Shown: positions 28,478-53,645, numbered from the stretch's first letter. The stretch: DNA of 64,000 nt from Nitrospira sp. CG24A (GCA_002869925.2 NEWT02000029.1:143070-207069), one strand, 5' to 3'. Notes: generated from the letters alone by a model not told the origin. Program-made: numbers and translations.

Positions 28478-29242
28478 ATGAATCAGTCGCTAGCTGGTTC
28501 CTTCGTTGACAGGGTCGATGAGGCAGTCAAACAGTTGGATCTCGACCGGGTCTCGCGTGACTATTGGGACCAGAACGAGTTCCTGTTTATTCCACAGTTT
28601 CTTTCTCGGTCGGTGGTGGAAGAGCATCTCGTCCCTCAGGCGCAAGGGGTGAAGGGCGATCTGAATCGCAACTACATTCCCGGCCACAAAAAGGGCGGGA
28701 GTGTCAGCTACTACACGGTGATGGAGAAGGCCCCGCGCTTTCTCGATCTCTATCGATCCGAAGCCTTCATCGAATTCTTGAGCCGTCTGACGCGGGCCAA
28801 GCTCAGCCTCTGTCCTGAGAATGACCCCCATTCCTGCGCGCTCTATTATTATACGGAGCCGGGGGACCATATCGGATTTCACTACGACACGTCCTACTAC
28901 AAGGGGGCTCGCTACACCATTTTGATGGGGCTGGTCGATCGTTCTACACAATGCAAACTGGTCTGCGAGCTGTTTAAAGACGACCCAGTGAAACAGCCCA
29001 AGCACCTTGAGCTCATCACGCAACCAGGCGATCTCGTCATCTTCAACGGCGATAAGCTCTGGCATTCGGTGACTCCTCTTGGCGAAGGGGAAGAACGAAT
29101 CGCCCTCACGATGGAATACGTCACCAATCCTGACATGGGAACTTTCAAGCGGCTCTATTCCAACCTCAAAGATTCCGTTGCCTACTTCGGCCTTCGTGCA
29201 GTGTTTAAGCAGGCTTTGACAGGCTCCAACCGACGTCCTTAG
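28478..29242 (+). CDS. 2-oxoglutarate/Fe(II) oxygenase-like (PhyH-type) protein
   Basis: GDHIGFHYDTSYYKGARYTILMGL ... ITQPGDLVIFNGDKLWHSVTPLGEGEERIALTMEY. Confidence 0.8.
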   Translation: MNQSLAGSFVDRVDEAVKQLDLDRVSRDYWDQNEFLFIPQFLSRSVVEEHLVPQAQGVKGDLNRNYIPGHKKGGSVSYYTVMEKAPRFLDLYRSEAFIEFLSRLTRAKLSLCPENDPHSCALYYYTEPGDHIGFHYDTSYYKGARYTILMGLVDRSTQCKLVCELFKDDPVKQPKHLELITQPGDLVIFNGDKLWHSVTPLGEGEERIALTMEYVTNPDMGTFKRLYSNLKDSVAYFGLRAVFKQALTGSNRRP

Positions 29243-29367
29243 CAGGATGCTGAAAATTGCCCCCAGCTTCGTTCTCGGCTCGTCGAAATCCTCAACGTAC
29301 CCCTGAGGGTACGCCTCCGGGTTCGACTCACCTGCGGCCTTGCTGGGATGCCATTTTGAGCATCCTG
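29242..29367. repeat. Family-1 palindromic repeat
   Basis: AGCAGGATGCTGAAAATTGCCC...GTACCCCTGAGGGTACGC...CATTTTGAGCATCCTGC. Confidence 0.87.
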
Positions 29368-29642
29368 CGGGAGGGTTCTTCTATTGTCCTAGCCCACATT
29401 TTTCATGAGCGCTTCTGTTGTAATTGCTGATCCGCTGCGCTTGCGCATGAAGCGGCGTCCATGAATTGTGAGCGAGACAAGCAAGATGTGCACGACAGGC
29501 GCGACTGGCCAAGACGAAATCTCAAGCTATTCCCGCTTTTCTCGCGATTCTCGCGCGAATAACCATATATACTTCACGCGAAACGCGTGTTCGTACCATT
29601 TGTCGACGAACCGCTGCACAGTAGGGATGCGGCGTAGTGGGT

Positions 29643-29720
29643 GTTCGTAGTCCGGTAGACGGGCTTTGAATCCATTCAAAGAGATGGTCTTACGCGGATC
29701 AGTCTAATTGATAGTTAGGC
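29643..29720 (+). other. Integron attI-like leader, copy 1
   Basis: GTTCGTAGTCCGGTAGACGGGCTTTGAATCCATTCAAAGAGATGGTCTTACGCGGATCAGTCTAATTGATAGTTAGGC; shared with 49324 and 52505; ends in GTTAGGC core. Confidence 0.6.
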
Positions 29721-29740: not shown

Positions 29741-30061
29741 ATGCCACTTCATGATTTCCGGTCGGTCCATCTTCCGTACTGCCTGACAAGGCAGGCGGGC
29801 GGAAAGTATGTTGTTTTAAACCGCGAGTACAAACCAATCGGTTTCAAAACTGAAGACCGGGTGGACTATGATAAATACCCAGTCGCCGTAAAAATAAAAG
29901 GGCTCACGGCGAAAGTAGTCGCAAAGGTTTCATGTAAAAAAGGTGCGAACCTCGAAAAAATCTATCTCTATGACGACGGCTGCATTCCAACCAAGAGTGC
30001 AAAGAATATGCAAGCCTATCTTGAAAGGCTTGAAGTTCTTGCAAAGCTACGATTCGGTTAA
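29741..30061 (+). CDS. Cassette-encoded hypothetical protein (106 aa)
   Basis: Starts 20 nt after the GTTAGGC core, ends at an attC-like site. Confidence 0.75.
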   Translation: MPLHDFRSVHLPYCLTRQAGGKYVVLNREYKPIGFKTEDRVDYDKYPVAVKIKGLTAKVVAKVSCKKGANLEKIYLYDDGCIPTKSAKNMQAYLERLEVLAKLRFG

Positions 30062-30100
30062 CCACTGGCTTGTGCGGACACCACAGCCAGGCCGTTAGGC
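30056..30100 (+). other. Putative integron attC site (short, 45 bp)
   Basis: GGTTAACCACTGGCTTGTGCGGACACCACAGCCAGGCCGTTAGGC: stem CTGGCT(T)GTG / CACAGCCAG with one extrahelical T and R' core GTTAGGC. Confidence 0.72.
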
Positions 30101-30105
30101 TTCAT

Positions 30106-30591
30106 ATGCCTGTCTACTTTGTTATCGACCGTAGTTCTTCGCAGATCAAGATCGGCCGAAGCAAGGATGTGCCAAAACGTGTACGTACGCTCCAGACTGG
30201 GAACCCGAATCCGCTCGAACTGATGGGATGGGTACTATCAGGACACGACACTTCGACGGAACGCACTCTTCACAAACGCTATGGCGCTAAGCGGGGCAGC
30301 GGAGAGTGGTTTTCCATTACACAAGACGAAGTTCTCTGGGAACTCAAGCGCGCTTGCGGATTCATTCCCAAGAAGGGCGATGCGTTTGAGATCGTCGGGT
30401 ACGACCGGGACGGAGTACCCGAGTATCTTGGGGTGTGTGATTGGGCAGACTTTGAACTGGAAGAGTGCTGTCCGTTCTGTGGATGTTTCTGCGGCATGCA
30501 CTTCCAAGAAGCATCTGCCATGTACCACTGCCTAAACTGCGATGCGCTCACCGACTTCTCTGGACTTAGTCGCGGCAAGAATGAGGTCTAA
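30106..30591 (+). CDS. GIY-YIG nuclease-like (T5orf172/MUG113-type) cassette protein with C-terminal zinc-binding cysteines
   Basis: VYFVIDRSSSQIKIGRSKDVPKRVRTLQTGNPNPLELMGWV...TERTLHKRYGAKRGSGEWF; CCPFCGCFC...CLNC. Confidence 0.8.
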   Translation: MPVYFVIDRSSSQIKIGRSKDVPKRVRTLQTGNPNPLELMGWVLSGHDTSTERTLHKRYGAKRGSGEWFSITQDEVLWELKRACGFIPKKGDAFEIVGYDRDGVPEYLGVCDWADFELEECCPFCGCFCGMHFQEASAMYHCLNCDALTDFSGLSRGKNEV

Positions 30592-32731: not shown

Positions 32732-32918
32732 TGATGAGAGCAGTAGGATGAAGAGGAGGAACCTATTGATGAAATAGCTGACTGCTGTAAAGATCGCTAG
32801 AATGCCTCGGAAGTCCAGAATAATCCGAGGCAAAATTGTTTGTAGTCGGCTGTTGCAGAACTAATTGGGGTCGGGAGAGCTTCGGTGGTCGGTCTGCGAG
32901 GTGCGTAGTTCCATACTG

Positions 32919-33043
32919 CAGGCTGCTCAAAAAGACCGTCCAGCAAGGCTGCAGCGAGTGAAGGCCTGAGGCGTACCCTCCGTGGTACGTTGAGGGTCTG
33001 AACGATGCGAGAACGACGCTGGCGGACTTTTTCAGCAGCCTGC
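32919..33043. repeat. Family-1 palindromic repeat
   Basis: CAGGCTGCTCAAAAAGACCGTCCAGC...GTACCCTCCGTGGTACGT...CGGACTTTTTCAGCAGCCTGC. Confidence 0.88.
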
Positions 33044-33628
33044 TCACCAGTAGTAAGGCCAAGGTCCCCAGTAGGGCCCCCAATAGGGACTAGGCCCCAT
33101 ATAGGGATAGGGGCGGATACGGGGGGCCAGGTTTTCCGCTGCGCTCCACACTTGCACACGACTGATAGTAAGAACGGGGTAGGTATAGTCCGTTTCATCC
33201 AATGGCAGCGTTACGGAGCCAGAGACCTGGCCAGTCACGGTGACTCTGGTTCCCGGCGGGATAGTCGCAGGGTCGAGGAATTCCCGGTAGATCGCGATGA
33301 AGCGGCCCTGTGATTGAGTCAAGTCGTACCCGGGCCGCATAGATCGATCGAGCGGCAACTGTAGGACTTCGATCTTCGTCCCGTCTTTCTGTCGTCGGGC
33401 CGTCAAGACTTTTCCGCCGAAGATCGCCGGTTGGCCTTGGAAGGAGTCCGGCGCTGCCTTGACTTGGAGAAAGTTGAATCCCTGCCTCTCATCCGCCTCT
33501 TGCGTCGAGGCACAACCCGCGAGCATGACGAGCAACGCCATGAGAGAAAGTAGTGTACGTGCCGGGAGTCTGGCCCTCGTTTGCCGCAGTAGGAGGGGCA
33601 ATATCGCGCAGGTTCTTCGCATAGCCAC
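33044..33628 (-). CDS. Slp family outer membrane lipoprotein
   Basis: Lipobox MLAGCAS; FQGQPAIFGGKVLTARRQKDGTKIEVLQLPLD; PGTRVTVTGQV. Confidence 0.88.
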   Translation of the reverse strand: MAMRRTCAILPLLLRQTRARLPARTLLSLMALLVMLAGCASTQEADERQGFNFLQVKAAPDSFQGQPAIFGGKVLTARRQKDGTKIEVLQLPLDRSMRPGYDLTQSQGRFIAIYREFLDPATIPPGTRVTVTGQVSGSVTLPLDETDYTYPVLTISRVQVWSAAENLAPRIRPYPYMGPSPYWGPYWGPWPYYW

Positions 33629-45409: not shown

Positions 45410-47467
45410 ATGATGGCGAAACGTGCATTCTATTGGGCCGCAGTGTTGTTCGTGATGATGTGCCTCCTGATGGGAGAAGTCGCACGCGCACATGATCCGG
45501 ACCTGCCGGAACTCGATCTGCCGGAAGTCTCGGTGACCGGCGAACGACCGGTCGCGGCATCCTCCCAGCAGTTCATCCCGGACAAAGAAATTCTTCTCCA
45601 ACCGCAGGGACGTCCCTCCCAAGTATTGCGTCTGATTCCCGGGTTCATTGCCGTCGAGCATTCGGGCGGGGCAGGCAAGGCCGATCAATATTTTCTGCGG
45701 GGCTTCGATGCGGACCACGGCACCGACGTTGCCTTCTTCACAGACGGGATGCCGATTAATCTCCGCACCCATGCGCATGGGCAAGGCTATACCGACCTAA
45801 ATTTTATGATTCCCGAAACCATAGAGGGAGTCGACGTCTACAAAGGGGCCTATCTTCCTGAGTATGGCGATTTCGCCACGGCCGGCGCTGTCAATTTCAG
45901 AACGCGACAGGTGGTGCAAGAGGGGGTCGTTCAGGTGTCTGGAGGGCAGTTCGATACACAGCGACATCTGCTCATGTTCTCTCCTACCAAGGAGAAGGTG
46001 CGCACGCTGTTCGCTGCTGAGGGCTATTACACGAACGGCCCGTTTCAGAACGACAATCGTTATCTTCGAACCAATCTCATGGGGAAGATGACGACCAATC
46101 TGTCCGGTCGCGATGAACTCAGTCTCACGGCAACCTTTCACAAATCTCAGTGGAATGGATCAGGCGAAATCCCGTTACGCGCGCTGACGGACGGCACGAT
46201 CGGTCGTTTTGGAGCGATCGACCCCTCGGAAGGAGGCAACACTCTCCGCAGCACCGCCAATATGAACTACCATTACGACACGACATCGGGTGGTCAGTTT
46301 TTTGCGAACGCATACGGACAATATTATCGGCTCGACCTGTTCACAAATTTCACGTTCTTCCTCAACGACCCGGTCAACGGCGACGGGATTCAACAATCAG
46401 ATCGCCGCGTGATGTATGGAGGCGACCTCGGATACAAGCAGCAGGGTCACGTACTGGGTCTGCCGAGTATCGGAACGGTCGGGTTTCAAACCAGAGTCGA
46501 CAACATCCATGCAAGGCTCGGAACTCACAGGACGAGAGTGCCGATTGGGACCACGGCAGACAGCGATATTCTTGAGGCGTCCTATGCTCCGTTCGTGAAG
46601 GCGGAGGTGCAGCCTACGTCATGGATGAGGCTTGTGGGCGGATTACGCGCAGAGACGTTTACGTTCGATGTGCGTAACCGTTGTGCGGCCTGCGCGGACC
46701 AACCAGCCGGACGGACAAGCTCCGGCGTCGTTCTTCCGAAAATGAACCTCATCCTAGGTCCCTGGGCCAATACGGAAATCTTTGCGAACTATGGCGAAGG
46801 CTATCACAGCAACGATGCACGATCGGTCGTCCTGCAGGGAGCCTCATCGCTTGCGCGAGCCAAGAACTATGAAGTAGGGATACGCTCTAAGCCGTGGGGG
46901 CCGGAGGGCGTAGAGTTGATTGCGACGGTATGGGCGTTAGATCTCAAGCAGGAACTCGTGTTTGTCGGCGATGAGGGGACCACCGAGATTCGCGGGGCCA
47001 GCCGGCGGCGAGGTGTTGAGGTCTCAGCGCGCGGCCAAGTGTGGGGGCCACTGTCGTTCAACGGCAGCGTGACCTATACCAAGGCGGAGTTTCGCAATGG
47101 CGATGCGATTCCGTTAGCTCCTGAAGTGACGGCCTATGGAGCCTTGCTCTTGAAATGGCCGGAAGGACTCACGTCGCAATTGCAGGCGACCTATCTGGGG
47201 GTCCGTCCACTCAATGAAGATCGAAGCATCAAGGCTCCCTCGTGGATCGATGTCGATCTGAGCGAACGGTATCAGTTGCCGATCAAGCTGTCTCACGGTC
47301 GGATGGAAGCCTTCCTCTTTGTGCAGAACCTGTTCAACACGAAATGGGAACAGGCCACCTTTGCTTTTGCCTCTCGGCTCCGCAACGAGCCGGCTTCCGT
47401 CACCGACATTCACTTTGTGCCGGGGAATCCAAGAACGTTCATGGGCGGCGTGGCGTGGTACTTTTAG
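45410..47467 (+). CDS. TonB-dependent receptor
   Basis: Signal peptide, plug domain FLRGFDADHGTDVAFFTDGMPINLRTHAHGQGYTDLNFMIPETIEGVDVYKGAY, beta-barrel, C-terminal GGVAWYF. Confidence 0.94.
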   Translation: MMAKRAFYWAAVLFVMMCLLMGEVARAHDPDLPELDLPEVSVTGERPVAASSQQFIPDKEILLQPQGRPSQVLRLIPGFIAVEHSGGAGKADQYFLRGFDADHGTDVAFFTDGMPINLRTHAHGQGYTDLNFMIPETIEGVDVYKGAYLPEYGDFATAGAVNFRTRQVVQEGVVQVSGGQFDTQRHLLMFSPTKEKVRTLFAAEGYYTNGPFQNDNRYLRTNLMGKMTTNLSGRDELSLTATFHKSQWNGSGEIPLRALTDGTIGRFGAIDPSEGGNTLRSTANMNYHYDTTSGGQFFANAYGQYYRLDLFTNFTFFLNDPVNGDGIQQSDRRVMYGGDLGYKQQGHVLGLPSIGTVGFQTRVDNIHARLGTHRTRVPIGTTADSDILEASYAPFVKAEVQPTSWMRLVGGLRAETFTFDVRNRCAACADQPAGRTSSGVVLPKMNLILGPWANTEIFANYGEGYHSNDARSVVLQGASSLARAKNYEVGIRSKPWGPEGVELIATVWALDLKQELVFVGDEGTTEIRGASRRRGVEVSARGQVWGPLSFNGSVTYTKAEFRNGDAIPLAPEVTAYGALLLKWPEGLTSQLQATYLGVRPLNEDRSIKAPSWIDVDLSERYQLPIKLSHGRMEAFLFVQNLFNTKWEQATFAFASRLRNEPASVTDIHFVPGNPRTFMGGVAWYF

Positions 47468-47592
47468 CGGCTGCTGAAAACGCCCTCCAACGGCGTTCTC
47501 GTCTCGCATGAATCCTCAACGTACCCCAGAGGGTACGCCTCCGGTTCATGCATCGCCTGCGGCCTTGTTGGAAGGGCGTTTTGAGCAGCCTG
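47467..47592. repeat. Family-1 palindromic repeat
   Basis: GCGGCTGCTGAAAACGCCCTCC...GTACCCCAGAGGGTACGC...GGGCGTTTTGAGCAGCCTG. Confidence 0.88.
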
Positions 47593-48769: not shown

Positions 48770-49260
48770 GAGGGGAGTGGCCAGGTGCCCTTCTTGCTCG
48801 CAGAACAGGGGAGGGGATGGAGCCTGATGATCTTCTGTGCTCGCGCAACGCGCGGTCGCGGACTCCCCTCGTTGGACGCGCGCAGTGGAAGATCAATCAG
48901 CCCCCATCCCTGGAGAGAACACGAGCGAGCTTGGAGGGACCATGTATATCGTCCGATGCGCGCAGTGAAGGGCAGCCTTGGCCATTCCCCTTGGGAGCAA
49001 AGTGGAAAAATGACAACAAAAGATGGGAAGGGCACCCACATTGGTCCTGTGCTCCCGGAACGCGCGCCCTGAGAAGGATAGGAAAGGCAGCCTAGTCGTC
49101 CTCCTGCTCGCGGAACGCGCACGATGGGAATGTGCTCGTTCGACGCGCGCAATCGAGGATCGACCAGGCTCCCCTTGAAAATGTAATGGGGAATTGAAAG
49201 AACACGCGCAGTAAAGTGCAGCCTCGGCTCCCCCAAGAGAGACATAGGGTAGGATCCCCC
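48770..49260. repeat. Cluster of family-2 palindromic repeats (clear units 48814-48910 and 49086-49174)
   Basis: GGGATGGAGCCTGATGATCTTC-[TGTGCTCGCGCAACGCGCGG...GTTGGACGCGCGCAGTG]-GAAGATCAATCAGCCCCCATCCC and GGCAGCCTAGTCGTCCTCC-[cap]-GAGGATCGACCAGGCTCCC. Confidence 0.85.
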
Positions 49261-49323
49261 TGGCTCCACCGTGACGTCAAGACAACGATAATGTATATTC
49301 ATGTCCTCAACGGCCCTGGGGGC

Positions 49324-49399
49324 GTTCGTAGTCAGGTAGGCGGGCTTTGATCCATTCTAAGAGGTGGTTTTATGCGGATCCGCCTAAACATTGTTAGCC
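49324..49399 (+). other. Integron attI-like leader, copy 2
   Basis: GTTCGTAGTCAGGTAGGCGGGCTTTGATCCATTCTAAGAGGTGGTTTTATGCGGATCCGCCTAAACATTGTTAGCC; tail resembles the class 1 attI core (CCTAAAACAAAGTTAGGC). Confidence 0.6.
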
Positions 49400-49415
49400 G
49401 CCAGAAAGGCAGCAG

Positions 49416-50099
49416 ATGTTCATCGCCGCAGCAGTGAAGATAACGCCCGAAGTCGAGAAGCACCTGCTTGAGCTTCAGGATAGTGGGGCATTTGGGGACA
49501 TGAAGGTCGACTTCATTCGACAATTGTTAGCCTTGCACGCGGCGAACAAAGGCCCGACTGCCGTAGACATTGCACACCAATCAAATCTATCGGTTCGAAC
49601 TGTCCGTGAGCTAAATCATGAACTCCAAGGTCAGCCCGACCTGTCTCGCAAGCGGCTCGCGTCGGTCTTCATCAGCTATGGCGGCCCAGATGATGCGTTT
49701 GCAAGAAAGCTATATCACGCGCTGAAAGACAAAGGAGTGGAAGTCTTCTTCTTCCCAGAGTCCGCAACGCCTGGTGACAAGTTGCACCGCACAATGAGCC
49801 AAGCGGTATACGACTACGATCGCGTTCTGCTCATATGCTCTCGCTCTTCACTGGTTCGGCCAGGTGTTCTCAATGAACTCGAACAAGTTCTTTCCCGTGA
49901 GGCCAGAGAAGGCGGGGCTGAGTTACTCATGCCAGTCCTACTTGACGACTTCGCACTCGCTGAATGGGTACCCGAGCGCGCAGACTTAGCGCGACAAGTT
50001 TGTGACCGCGTTGCAGCTGATTTTCGGAACGCATCGATTGACTCTGAATTCGTCAAGCAGCTGGATCGAGTATTGGTCGCATTGAATTGCGAGGCATGA
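49416..50099 (+). CDS. TIR domain protein with N-terminal helical/HTH-like region, cassette-encoded
   Basis: LASVFISYGGPDDAFARKLYHALKDKGVEVFFFPESATPGDKLHRTMSQAVYDYDRVLLICSRSSLVRPGVLNELEQVL. Confidence 0.88.
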   Translation: MFIAAAVKITPEVEKHLLELQDSGAFGDMKVDFIRQLLALHAANKGPTAVDIAHQSNLSVRTVRELNHELQGQPDLSRKRLASVFISYGGPDDAFARKLYHALKDKGVEVFFFPESATPGDKLHRTMSQAVYDYDRVLLICSRSSLVRPGVLNELEQVLSREAREGGAELLMPVLLDDFALAEWVPERADLARQVCDRVAADFRNASIDSEFVKQLDRVLVALNCEA

Positions 50100-50109
50100 A
50101 TAAGCTGAC

Positions 50110-50166
50110 GGCTAACCTTTCGTTCCAGTGGACTGCCTTCGCAGCCGCTGAACTCAAACGTTGAGC
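50110..50166 (+). other. attC site (57 bp)
   Basis: GGCTAACCTTTCGTTCCAGTGGACTGCCTTCGCAGCCGCTGAACTCAAACGTTGAGC; imperfect stem with two extrahelical bases; R' GTTGAGC. Confidence 0.85.
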
Positions 50167-50230
50167 CGACGTTTCGCGTCGTCCCAACGGCCCCGCGGAT
50201 GGTTCTCCGCCGGCTGGCCCGAGAAACGCG

Positions 50231-50313
50231 GCCCAACCAGCGGCTGCAGCGGACCTCCGTTGCACAAACTTCGTTTGCTCTGCGGACGCCGCTGATCCGT
50301 GAGGCCGTTAGAT
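50231..50313 (+). other. attC site (83 bp)
   Basis: GCCCAAC...GCGGACCTCCGTTGCACAAACTTCGTTTGCTCTGCGGACGCCGCTGATCCGTGAGGCCGTTAGAT; perfect RYYYAAC and GTTRRRY boxes. Confidence 0.87.
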
Positions 50314-50319
50314 TTTGCA

Positions 50320-50922
50320 ATGCATCCTGACCTACCCGCACAGTCTCTCGCCGCGATTGCAACCGTTGTAGCTGCATTGATCGCTGCGGCCTTCTCCTTC
50401 GTCAATCTAACCCTCAACAAGGAACAGAAGACCTCGGAGTTCCGCCAGGCATGGATTGACGGACTGCGAGAAGACCTCGCAGCCTTCTTTGCCGGGGCAC
50501 GGGCGTTCGCCAGGGCGACTGAGGAACTGAAATCAGCTGCTAGCGCTAGTCGCGCGGCCCTACCGCTTGCCATGAGTCCTGAGAAGATCAGTGATATCCG
50601 CTACCAAGCAGCCGAGACACGCTACCGAATACAGCTGCGACTCAACCTAAAAGAGCCGGAGCACAAGGAATTGCTCCGGTTGATGCTGGTGGCAGCAGAT
50701 GAGCAGAACAAATTCTTAGCAGACAAGAGCGACGTGGAGAGAACTCTTCAGGCAATAGAAAACGCTGCCGACTATGCACCCCAAATTCTCAAGGCAGAGT
50801 GGGAACGCGTTAAACGAGGAGAACTCGCGTTTCGTCTAGCAAGAAACTGGATCGCGCCCGCAATCGTCCTCATATCATTGCTGTTCGTAGCCCTCGTCTG
50901 GGTGGGTCGCGTGAAAATCTAG
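50320..50922 (+). CDS. Cassette-encoded hypothetical protein with N- and C-terminal TM helices
   Basis: SLAAIATVVAALIAAAFSFVNLTLNKEQKTSEFRQAWIDGLREDLAAFF ... IAPAIVLISLLFVALVWV; bounded by attC sites. Confidence 0.8.
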   Translation: MHPDLPAQSLAAIATVVAALIAAAFSFVNLTLNKEQKTSEFRQAWIDGLREDLAAFFAGARAFARATEELKSAASASRAALPLAMSPEKISDIRYQAAETRYRIQLRLNLKEPEHKELLRLMLVAADEQNKFLADKSDVERTLQAIENAADYAPQILKAEWERVKRGELAFRLARNWIAPAIVLISLLFVALVWVGRVKI

Positions 50923-50999
50923 CCCTTCCATCGAGCGGACCTCTGCCGCACAAACGGCGTTTGCTCCGCGGATGCCGCTGATCCGCAGGGCCGTTGGGC
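50917..50999 (+). other. attC site (83 bp)
   Basis: ATCTAGC...GCGGACCTCTGCCGCACAAACGGCGTTTGCTCCGCGGATGCCGCTGATCCGCAGGGCCGTTGGGC; closely similar to 50231-50313. Confidence 0.83.
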
Positions 51000-51026
51000 G
51001 TAACAAAATGTTGGGAGCACGGACAA

Positions 51027-51502
51027 ATGAATAAGACAAAGCCGCAGCTTATTACCGCTGGATTCTCTTTGGTGCCGTACCTCTTAGTGTCGTGGGGTTA
51101 TGCCGAATTAACAGATGGAAGAACTGAGACGTTTTGGACCGCATTTGGTGTCTTGGTTGGATTAAGATTGTTTTTTAGCGTCATTGAGACGATTGGTAGT
51201 GTTCTTTCTTGGAGGCTTTATGGCAGAAAGCTCATGGTTCAAAAAATGCTAGAAGCTCTCCGAACTAACAAATTTCCCAACGCTTCTATTCTCACGACGA
51301 CATACTGGGCTATTTAGCGAGGATCGAGGATAGCGAGGAAGTTTCATCTTCGGTAAAGAGTGCAGCCAAACAATTGGAATTTATGTTGGTGACCTTTGAG
51401 AATCTTGGAATACTAGCGGGCGCTCGTATGTATTCTGCAACGGAAGCCGCGCTTGAAGTTTATTCACCCAGAAGCGCAGCGAAAGAATTCCCGTGGGGCT
51501 AA
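51027..51502 (+). pseudogene. Cassette-encoded two-TM membrane protein disrupted by a frameshift near 51310
   Basis: Frame 1 MNKTKPQLITAGFSLVPYLLVSWGYAELTDG...ILTTTYWAI*; continues in another frame as YLARIEDSEEVSSSVKSAAKQLEFMLVTFENLGILAGARMYSATEAALEVYSPRSAAKEFPWG*. Confidence 0.7.
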
Positions 51503-51536
51503 TAATGAATCGCACCGCTCGTTTCGTGTGGTTCGC

Positions 51537-51584
51537 GCCCAACAAGGTGCTCAAGCCGACTCGCTACGTCGGCGCTACGAGGCC
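51537..51584 (+). other. Degenerate attC site
   Basis: GCCCAACAAGGTGCTCAAGCCGACTCGCTACGTCGGCGCTACGAGGCC: good R'' box and AGCCGAC/GTCGGC(G)CT stem, no clear GTTRRRY. Confidence 0.6.
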
Positions 51585-51706
51585 ATAGAAAAGGGGTCTG
51601 GAATCTTAATTTCTCATAAGCATTCAAAAGTATTCCCAATCCCTCGCCTCCTTATATTCCCTCCCGAGTGCTCAGTTCGCGGCTGAGTGGTGGAGCATTC
51701 AGCGTC

Positions 51707-51961
51707 TCAGTAATGGAAACGCAACTGCGCGATCATGAGCGCATCCCCCTCTACGCGATAGACCATTCGATGCTCATCATTTATTCGACGTGACCAGTAC
51801 CCCGAAAGCGCATGTTTCAAGGGCTCAGGCTTACCCACTCCTGCGAAGGGCTCTCGTTGTGTCTCGCGTATCAGCTTATTAATTCTCTCAACCATGCGCT
51901 TGTCTTGCTTTTGCCAATAGACATAGTCGTCCCATGCATCGTCAGCGAAGATCAGTTTCAC
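51707..51961 (-). CDS. yoeB: YoeB-family mRNA interferase toxin
   Basis: MKLIFADDAWDDYVYWQKQDKRMVERINKLIRETQREPFAGVGKPEPLKHALSGYWSRRINDEHRMVYRV. Confidence 0.93.
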   Translation of the reverse strand: MKLIFADDAWDDYVYWQKQDKRMVERINKLIRETQREPFAGVGKPEPLKHALSGYWSRRINDEHRMVYRVEGDALMIAQLRFHY

Positions 51962-52209
51962 TTGGCTAGCTTCCGCTCAATGCCTTTGCCGGCGTTCAGT
52001 TGTGCAGCAGCTGCAAGAAGACGTTTGGCGTTAGCGGGAGTGCGCAAGAGGTATGCGGTTTCTTCTAGCGATTTGTAGTCTTCCAGCGAGAGCATCACGA
52101 CCGACTGTTCTCCATTGCGCGTAATGATCAGAGCTTCGTGGTCGTCGCACACGCGGTCCATTGCGCTTGCGAGGTTTGCGCGAACGGTGGTGTACGTCAT
52201 AGCATCCAT
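51958..52209 (-). CDS. yefM: YefM-family antitoxin
   Basis: MTYTTVRANLASAMDRVCDDHEALIITRNGEQSVVMLSLEDYKSLEETAYLL; ATGA overlap with yoeB. Confidence 0.93.
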   Translation of the reverse strand: MDAMTYTTVRANLASAMDRVCDDHEALIITRNGEQSVVMLSLEDYKSLEETAYLLRTPANAKRLLAAAAQLNAGKGIERKLAK

Positions 52210-52504
52210 AGTAAGCCTCCAGATATGTACGTGTTACTGTACATCGTTGTTTGCCAATTGTCTAGCGCCGCCGACTCTGAGAATGGACGGAAATACGAGG
52301 TCAGCTGTGGCGGCTGTTGCTGATGGCCTTGTGCGGCCGTGGTCGCGATAGGATGGGCCGTGGCTGAGATCGAGGAGGTGGATGGTGGCGGTGGTGCTCT
52401 CATTCGCTCGTCTGAAGAGAGGTATAGGGGCGGATCTCGCGGGCTGCCACAGTGCCGTCAAGATAACAATATAAATTCATGTCCTCAACCACGGCTCTGA
52501 GAGC

Positions 52505-52580
52505 GTTCGTAGTCCGGCAGGCGGGCTTTGAATCCATTCACAAAGGTGGTCTTATGCGGATCCGCGTAAGCTGCCGTGAT
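52505..52580 (+). other. attI-like leader, copy 3 (3' core diverged)
   Basis: GTTCGTAGTCCGGCAGGCGGGCTTTGAATCCATTCACAAAGGTGGTCTTATGCGGATCCGCGTAAGCTGCC; upstream identity with copy 2 extends to about 52450. Confidence 0.55.
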
Positions 52581-52683
52581 AAACCACATGGCAGAGAGTA
52601 AATAATTGTCGGTAAGGGGGTTAACAGGTTTTCGACGAGAAATTTTCAGGCGTGTTATGCGGACAAACGCCCAGGGTTCAGGA

Positions 52684-52714
52684 GCTTAAGCGGATCGGCC
52701 TAAACATTGATAGG
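52684..52714 (+). other. attI-like core, copy 4 (3' part only)
   Basis: CTTAAGCGGATCGGCCTAAACATTGATAGGC, 6 nt before the HAD gene. Confidence 0.5.
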
Positions 52715-52720
52715 CAATTC

Positions 52721-53350
52721 ATGCATATGAAATATCGGCTGGCAATTTTTGACTTCGATGGAACTTTAGCGGACTCATTTCCCTTCTTTGTTCAAGTATT
52801 CAACCAACTCGCCGAACAACATGGTTTCAAAAAAATTGATCCGGATTTAGCGCCTACTTTCCGGCACTACAACGCCAGGCAGATCATGAAACAGGTAGGG
52901 ATGCCTGACTGGAAACTCCCTTTTGTGGTCAAGAGTTTTACCTCCCTCATGAAGCAACATGCGGCAAGCATCTCGCCGTTTGAACATGTTGATGACTTGC
53001 TGTTTCATTTGGCCAATAAAGGAGTGACTCTTGCCATCGTATCGTCAAACTCCTACGACAATGTCAGCCAGATTCTAGGGTCTACCAATATAAAACTGAT
53101 CAGCCAATTCGAGTGCGGGATGTCGATGTTTGGCAAACCGGCCAGAATACGGAAGGTGCTCAAAAAGACCGGGACCCCCTGCCACGAAGTCATCTATATC
53201 GGCGATCAAGTTGCCGATCTGGAGGCAGCGCGTAAGGAAAGCATTGATTTTGGAGCGGTGTCATGGGGGTACGAAACGATTGAGTCTCTTAGAAAATATT
53301 TCCCTGAAGAGGAGTTCGATTGTGTGTCCGCTATCAGAAGAATCGCCTAA
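52721..53350 (+). CDS. HAD-superfamily hydrolase
   Basis: LAIFDFDGTLADSFPFF, LAIVSSNSYDNV, VIYIGDQVADLEAARKESIDFGAVSWGYE. Confidence 0.92.
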   Translation: MHMKYRLAIFDFDGTLADSFPFFVQVFNQLAEQHGFKKIDPDLAPTFRHYNARQIMKQVGMPDWKLPFVVKSFTSLMKQHAASISPFEHVDDLLFHLANKGVTLAIVSSNSYDNVSQILGSTNIKLISQFECGMSMFGKPARIRKVLKKTGTPCHEVIYIGDQVADLEAARKESIDFGAVSWGYETIESLRKYFPEEEFDCVSAIRRIA

Positions 53351-53395
53351 TCGCGGCGAGAGTCCGCACGAGTGGACTATCAGGCGGCATTCCCA

Positions 53396-53645
53396 CAGGA
53401 TGCTCAAAAAGTTTGTCCAGCAAGGCCGCAGTGAGCGACCAACGATGATCCTTCCAAGCTTGCTGGTGTACGTTGCCTAGGATGGCCCGGATGAGTTCCC
53501 CACTGCGCGTGTTCTTTCAATTCTCCGTTACATTTTCAAGGGCAGCCTGGTCGATCCTCGATTGCGCGCGTCGAACGAGCACATTCCGATCGTGCGCGTT
53601 CCGCGAGCAGGAGGACGACCAGGTTGCCCTTCTCCCAGCTAGTTC
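53396..53645. repeat. Composite of family-1 half and family-2 palindromes
   Basis: AGGATGCTCAAAAAGTTTGTCCAGCAAGGCCGCAGTGAGCG then GGGCAGCCTGGTCGATCCTC-[cap]-GGAGGACGACCAGGTTGCCC (53540-53629). Confidence 0.8.

Follow-up and report, generated by a model that had tools for sequence, protein, structure and literature searches.

Leader copies in the window and their intact relatives

The DNA analysed here is a 64,000-nt stretch of Nitrospira sp. CG24A (the window; coordinates are counted from its first letter), in which a short leader precedes several groups of genes arranged like integron cassettes. A first-pass annotation had described this leader as a possible dispersed attI system, with copies at 29643, 49324 and 52505 and a 3'-only copy at 52684. 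The recurrence was confirmed: the 27-bp signature GTTCGTAGTCNGGYAGRCGGGCTTTGA occurs exactly at the first three positions, referred to as copies B, C and D, respectively (loci B and C are named accordingly), and at no other site in the window, with 0 matches expected from 100 shuffles. Matches to the attI core were found at 49370 and 52686, again with 0 expected by chance, and copy B carries at 29690 an indel variant of the core that is one base longer. The sequence at 52684 is no further leader; it is the second core (core2), i.e., the true attI core, of a single unit that starts at 52457 and includes the signature at 52505. A fourth unit lies outside the window on the same contig, 6.9 kb upstream (C22:135892-136185), with a 45-residue fragment of an integron integrase (IntI). 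The distances annotated between the copies and the genes behind them were about right, the next start codon being roughly 5-20 nt away.

By its sequence, the leader combines the closing codons of a broken integron integrase gene (intI) with the insertion site of the integrase (attI). The 5' half encodes the C-terminus of IntI (..GVRSPVDGL*), oriented like the cassettes, and the attI core makes up the 3' half. The remnant of copy C matched intact IntI with an E value of 6e-9 (tblastn). In the relatives with intact intI (L051, L053, L057 and L059) and in the partial L068, IntI ends with YTHVL..GVRSPLDG(L/M)*, and core2, TTATGCGGATCSGYCTAAACATTGTTAGGC or a close variant, follows 155-158 bp past the IntI stop. 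The intact relatives reveal the parent layout: the IntI stop is followed by about 20 bp, a palindrome termed core1 (e.g., TTATGCCGATCCGCATAA), a promoter-like segment of about 110 bp and core2 as attI. Full-length IntI of this type scored about 450-474 bits against TIGR02249 (cut-off 265). The homology of the window copies to the intact intI-attI platforms reaches 100-240 bp and includes intI codons and the promoter-like segment. Since the conserved 5' half is intI coding sequence, the leaders are truncated platforms of a reverse integron rather than independent attI leaders.

The features of an attI site, i.e., L-box and R-box, a GTTRRRY crossover core and a position next to the first cassette, were present with a CCTAAACATTGTTAGCC-type core at 49370, at 52686 (as GATAGGC) and as the variant at 29690. 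The resemblance to class 1 attI noted in the first-pass annotation holds for the core and is confined to it. As in a reverse integron, intI and cassettes are transcribed the same way in the intact relatives and in the window, where intI remnants and first cassette open reading frames (ORFs) lie on the same strand. The layout is indeed unlike the textbook, but for reasons given only in part before: the integrase has been lost, and intI points the same way as the cassettes. Likewise, no functional intI with the integron-specific domain adjoins the copies, although each of them keeps the 3' end of intI, about 9-25 codons and the stop. In the CG24A genome, no match to TIGR02249 above the cut-off and no IntI were found, only XerC, XerD and a distant recombinase. 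A weak IntI-like match (C29:595346), located by a tRNA-like sequence and without attI core, was read as the remnant of an unrelated recombinase. A divergent ORF on the minus strand starting at 49302 (P0001) was rejected as cause of the shared upstream sequence, which is intI when read on the plus strand. The Rfam search gave no match.

In copies B and C, which are short forms, the core1-core2 interval has been lost and the cores have merged; in these and their relatives, the distance from stop to core is about 19-26 bp. Copy D is a long form. The segment between core1 and core2 is a candidate Pc promoter: a TTGAAA-N17-TATTGT sequence is conserved in the alignment of 100 sites, absent from the short forms B and C and decayed in copy D. 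The conservation of core1 suggests a putative role as an IntI-site-like palindrome.

The features of the three loci are listed in Table 1. The region of copy D (51586-53349) is 90.8% identical to G149:C174. The attC-like R''/R' pairs form moderate hairpins at 50110, 50231 and 30057 and a weak one at 50916; clear attC sites are present in the orthologous array L242.

Table 1. Positions of the leader copies, cassettes and neighbouring genes in the window.
Feature	Position	Strand	Evidence
Copy B, intI remnant, last codons GVRSPVDGL*	29640..29669	+	In-frame reading; same C-terminus in intact relatives; unique signature
Copy B, short-form attI core TTACGCGGATCAGTCTAATTGATAGTTAGGC	29690..29720	+	Two relatives have an orthologous attI here, followed by different first cassettes
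Copy B, first cassette gene, 106 aa	29741..30061	+	No family match
attC-like site ending GTTAGGC	30057..30100	+	Hairpin z -1.67
Second cassette gene after copy B, MUG113/T5orf172 (GIY-YIG-like) domain	30106..30591	+	
Copy C, intI remnant, 25 codons DVKTTIMYIHVLNGPGGVRSQVGGL*	49273..49350	+	tblastn to intact IntI; alignment
Copy C, short-form attI core, expected crossover G^TTAGCC	49370..49399	+	Nine orthologous sites with nine different first cassettes
Copy C, first cassette gene, TIR-domain protein	49416..50099	+	Pfam TIR_2, 2.5e-20
attC-like site	50110..50166	+	Bottom-strand hairpin z -1.91
attC-like site	50231..50313	+	Bottom-strand hairpin z -2.34; 3' half recurs at 50934
Cassette gene, function unknown	50299..50922	+	
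Weak attC-like site	50916..50999	+	84% repeat of 50248-50309; fold not significant, z -0.60
Cassette ORF, function unknown	50994..51317	+	
YoeB-like toxin of a toxin-antitoxin module inside the array region	51707..51961	-	Pfam, 2.6e-40
Phd/YefM antitoxin	51958..52209	-	Pfam, 4.3e-24
Copy D, intI remnant with in-frame stop	52457..52531	+	Sequence; alignment to intact intI
Copy D, core1 palindrome-like element TTATGCGGATCCGCGTAA	52551..52569	+	Intact relatives carry this element behind the intI stop
Copy D, core2, actual attI core	52686..52715	+	Stop-to-core2 154 bp vs 155-158 in relatives
Copy D, cassette gene, HAD hydrolase	52727..53350	+	Pfam, 7.1e-33

Two repeat families were also observed in the window. 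One repeat, about 130 bp long and with hairpin-like ends (29240-29369, near 32911-33044, 47465-47592 and 53378-53438), is dispersed in very high copy number through each of the 32 genomes of the genus. A second family (..GCTCGCGGAACGCGC..CTCGTTCGACGCGCGCA..) lies at 48838-49212 and, inverted, at 53502-53632, the inverted copies being 95% identical over 131 nt; in copy C and in some relatives, it lies right next to the truncated intI. Toxin-antitoxin modules were observed directly before orphan attI units in several arrays (YoeB/YefM at 51707-52209 in the window and an apparent HigBA; also L107 and L110).

Orphan attI sites across the Nitrospira family

The attI core pattern, with up to two mismatches allowed, was searched in 175 genomes of the family, most of which are metagenome-assembled genomes (MAGs). 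It was found in 107 of the 175, with up to about nine sites per genome, and the reversed control pattern gave zero matches. IntI was detected at E <= 1e-50, long fragments included, in 24 of the 175 genomes, and 18 exceeded the curated TIGR02249 cut-off. The 140 distinct attI sites, not all of them independent, were preceded by near-full intI in 7 cases, by 60-249 residues in 11, by fewer than 60 in 26 and by none in 96. Copies elsewhere that lack genes after them would have refuted the leader proposal, and this was not borne out: at 103 of 113 sites, a same-strand ORF starts within 50 bp downstream (median 19 bp), compared with 13 of 122 in the opposite-direction control. The view that attI-type sites head cassettes, several per genome and dispersed across relatives, is supported. 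Putative attI without intI is a family-wide habit, with predicted integrase-less docking sites scattered through Nitrospira genomes. A scan of GTDB contigs returned 66 loci, mostly from Nitrospira and other Nitrospirota and including the complete chromosome of Ca. N. defluvii; about a dozen came from MAGs labelled as other phyla. Exact matches to the attI core were seen in MAGs labelled Hydrogenedentota, Chlorobiaceae, Planctomycetota, Sumerlaeota, Desulforudis, Chloroflexi and Bacteroidetes (L131, L141, L144, L150, L163, L172, L180 and L181). Since IntI sequence lies upstream of the core in L163, L180 and L181, this attI type may extend beyond Nitrospira.

Orthologous sites were compared at locus C, whose upstream genes are present in 25 of 32 congeners. 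Ten genomes keep an attI remnant there. The core is intact in nine of them, and BLASTN found no similarity among their nine first cassettes over the available sequence. Mean identity in the 110 bp ahead of the core is 79% among the seven short-form copies. For the core itself, all eight copies compared give a mean of 91%, a value that is inflated since the sites were located through the core, and the DNA after the core is at the level of shuffled sequence. The orthologue in G152 retained the long form, that in G149 has a decayed core, and only G139 among the locus C genomes has a full IntI. Since the orthologues compared have the same non-intI flank upstream of the intI remnant, intI was apparently truncated only once, in an ancestor. 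The locus C cassette of G139 was also found at a non-orthologous long-form attI (G149:C251), with 90% identity across 631 bp that start at the core. Locus B (29643) follows the same pattern, with differing first cassettes in three species. Nine unrelated first cassettes behind what appears to be one truncation suggest exchange in trans after intI loss. From this, we infer that orphan attI sites were used by a trans-acting integrase after the loss of intI in cis, provided that the truncation is single and older than the cassette differences. Several docking sites seem to have exchanged genes long after the integrase was lost.

Gene-less units were observed in relatives, the window copies being of the truncated-intI type. 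In Ca. N. defluvii and others, a segment starting with GTTAATGCGACAGGGCTGAGGACCGC stands after differing attC-like ends, a pattern present in 61 of the 175 family genomes. Among 67 copies, homology begins within the first four bases of the model in 50, 44 of these with GTT, and 24 of the 67 lead into an attI core no more than 420 bp away, the usual distances being 260-269 and 201-221 bp. Both unit ends are IntI crossover points, as expected of a cassette with attI as its 3' site. It is conceivable, though still tentative, that attI itself is mobile as a gene-less unit of about 200-290 bp that runs from G^TTAATGCGACAGGGCTGAGGACCGC... via core1 and the promoter-like sequence to CTAAACATTG^TTAGGC and that IntI would excise and re-insert like a cassette. 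The same structure would result from platforms duplicated in tandem, with that segment as their native right flank. Junctions that join the attI core directly to TTAATGC, which a frequent tandem arrangement of promoter-attI units would have produced, were almost absent in the 175 genomes; G068:C8 (L222) is a single near-exact case. Unit-unit copies in tandem are therefore uncommon. If mobile, such a unit would plant a fresh promoter and docking site in arrays and around the chromosome, and the number of capture points in Nitrospira integrons would grow independently of the integrase gene.

Upstream of core1, a 37-nt block (CGACCCAAAGC..) was classed as a repeat after a gene end and an attC site had been considered. 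A block of 33-37 nt (CGACCCAAAGCMGAAGTMCAYGACYGACCGCTA) occurs in 56 of the 175 family genomes, upstream of core1 at L109, L110, L114, L136 and others and often about 178 bp before the attI core; its third-position variation looks coding (RPKAEVHD), and no gene was identified.

Origin of the orphan sites

The leader is probably the attI end of a decayed reverse chromosomal integron, with orphan sites that persisted and cassettes that were exchanged in trans after intI had been lost. The ancestral platform would have been a reverse (same-orientation) chromosomal integron comprising the intI 3' end, core1, the promoter-like segment and core2. In CG24A, every copy has been stripped of all but the intI end, and copies B and C are also without the core1-core2 interval, for which a deletion between the similar cores would be the simplest cause. 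As orphans, the attI sites would have persisted in place for long periods, heading small cassette arrays. Their cassettes may have been exchanged after the loss of intI in cis, most simply via IntI in trans, supplied by another integron once in the same cell and now absent from the CG24A assembly. This reading ties together what was read directly from the genomes: the identity of the parts, their constant spacing, dispersal, intI loss, gene placement and the differing cassettes at orthologous orphan sites. Several points weigh against it. IntI was not found in most genomes with orphan attI, most of them MAGs, so the supplier in trans is unseen. Older exchange could predate truncation if the truncations were independent, and the conservation of the attI core is partly a product of finding the sites by it. 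A scan for the sigma-70 consensus called no promoter in L057. Moreover, the attC sites beside the window copies fold only moderately (z -0.6 to -2.3); these four candidates were folded because the custom attC scan was too insensitive and missed known attC sites.

The sites could instead be pure relics of integrons that were inserted or duplicated long ago, filled while intI was intact and then decayed, the orphan attI sites being dead since. Remnants of intI that grade from full length down to nothing fit such decay, as do the decayed cores (locus C of G149; 52686 with GATAGGC), the lack of IntI in CG24A and the fact that pseudogenes make up about one third of all intI (PMC2426708). Nevertheless, this is rather unlikely in view of nine orthologous sites with apparently one truncation and nine different first cassettes joined at the core; in addition, the core of locus C is better conserved than the adjoining intI remnant. 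Homologous recombination, acting on attI copies or on flanking repeats, might also have swapped cassettes without IntI: cores and leaders are alike enough for short homologous exchange, and one cassette stands at two attI loci (locus C of G139 and G149:C251). However, the joins lie at the core with no similarity downstream, the core homology spans only about 30 bp, and 44 of the 50 gene-less segments start at GTT after differing sequences, which makes such swapping improbable.

IntI can use genomic sites other than attI (PMC12444791, PMC12901181), and cassettes without nearby intI are common. Entry of cassettes into secondary sites of this attG type is nonetheless a very improbable origin overall, since the window copies share up to 240 bp with intact platforms, intI codons and promoter-like segment included, which is unexpected for a secondary site; it is contradicted for copies with intI ends and possible for the 18 core-only sites. 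That the leader belongs to an unrelated transposon or dispersed repeat and stands upstream of genes by chance, a possibility raised by the first-pass annotation, is hardly credible. High-copy repeats do flank the copies (48838-49212 and 53502-53632), and the 130-bp repeat is abundant, but these repeats also occur without the leader, no transposase or terminal repeats were seen bounding it, and it encodes the IntI C-terminus at constant spacing to the attI core in intact integrons.

Implications and comparison with known systems

Integron surveys search for intI and attC, and attI outside class 1 goes unsearched; IntegronFinder does not detect it (PMC9024848). If attI sites outlive and outnumber intI and exchange cassettes in trans, genomes without integrase are not necessarily frozen. 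One transient integrase could then reshuffle many loci together, and cassette capture would be undercounted in a major nitrifier family. Orthologous orphan sites with differing cassettes offer a testable natural experiment on exchange after the loss of the integrase in cis. No description of orphan attI sites was found in the open-access literature of PubMed Central, the only literature covered; as evidence of novelty, this is weak.

The closest layout is that of the reverse integron of Treponema denticola, in which intI and cassettes share one orientation and attI and Pc lie between the intI stop and the first cassette (PMC7691350). The Nitrospira platforms resemble it in the direction of intI and the position of attI after the intI stop. 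T. denticola has one intact platform, whereas most Nitrospira platforms lack intI, and attI occurs family-wide, often several times per genome. Clusters of attC sites lacking an integrase (CALIN) and pseudo-integrons are cassettes with attC whose integrase is missing or dead (PMC9024848, PMC12444791, PMC2426708), and two CALINs have already been recorded in Nitrospira inopinata. Unlike a CALIN, the sites described here keep attI, often with the promoter-like segment, without intI. Xanthomonas strains in which intI bears the same lesion are usually identical in their arrays (PMC12444791); the arrays at orthologous Nitrospira orphan sites differ completely, which is the opposite pattern.

The gene-less units can be compared with delta-attI-type cassettes of class 1 and 2 integrons, in which attI forms the 3' boundary inside an array and which were shown experimentally to be excisable by IntI1 (PMC12901181). 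Those cassettes carry mostly 14-18 nt of attI (244 nt in one type) behind a gene, mainly a resistance gene (PMC12901181), whereas the Nitrospira units are gene-less, 200-290 bp long, consist of promoter-like sequence and attI region and occur in many genomes. ORF-less cassettes able to supply a promoter to downstream cassettes have been described in Vibrio superintegrons (PMC11014356) and in oral Treponema (PMC6557892); these end in attC, whereas the Nitrospira units end in attI.

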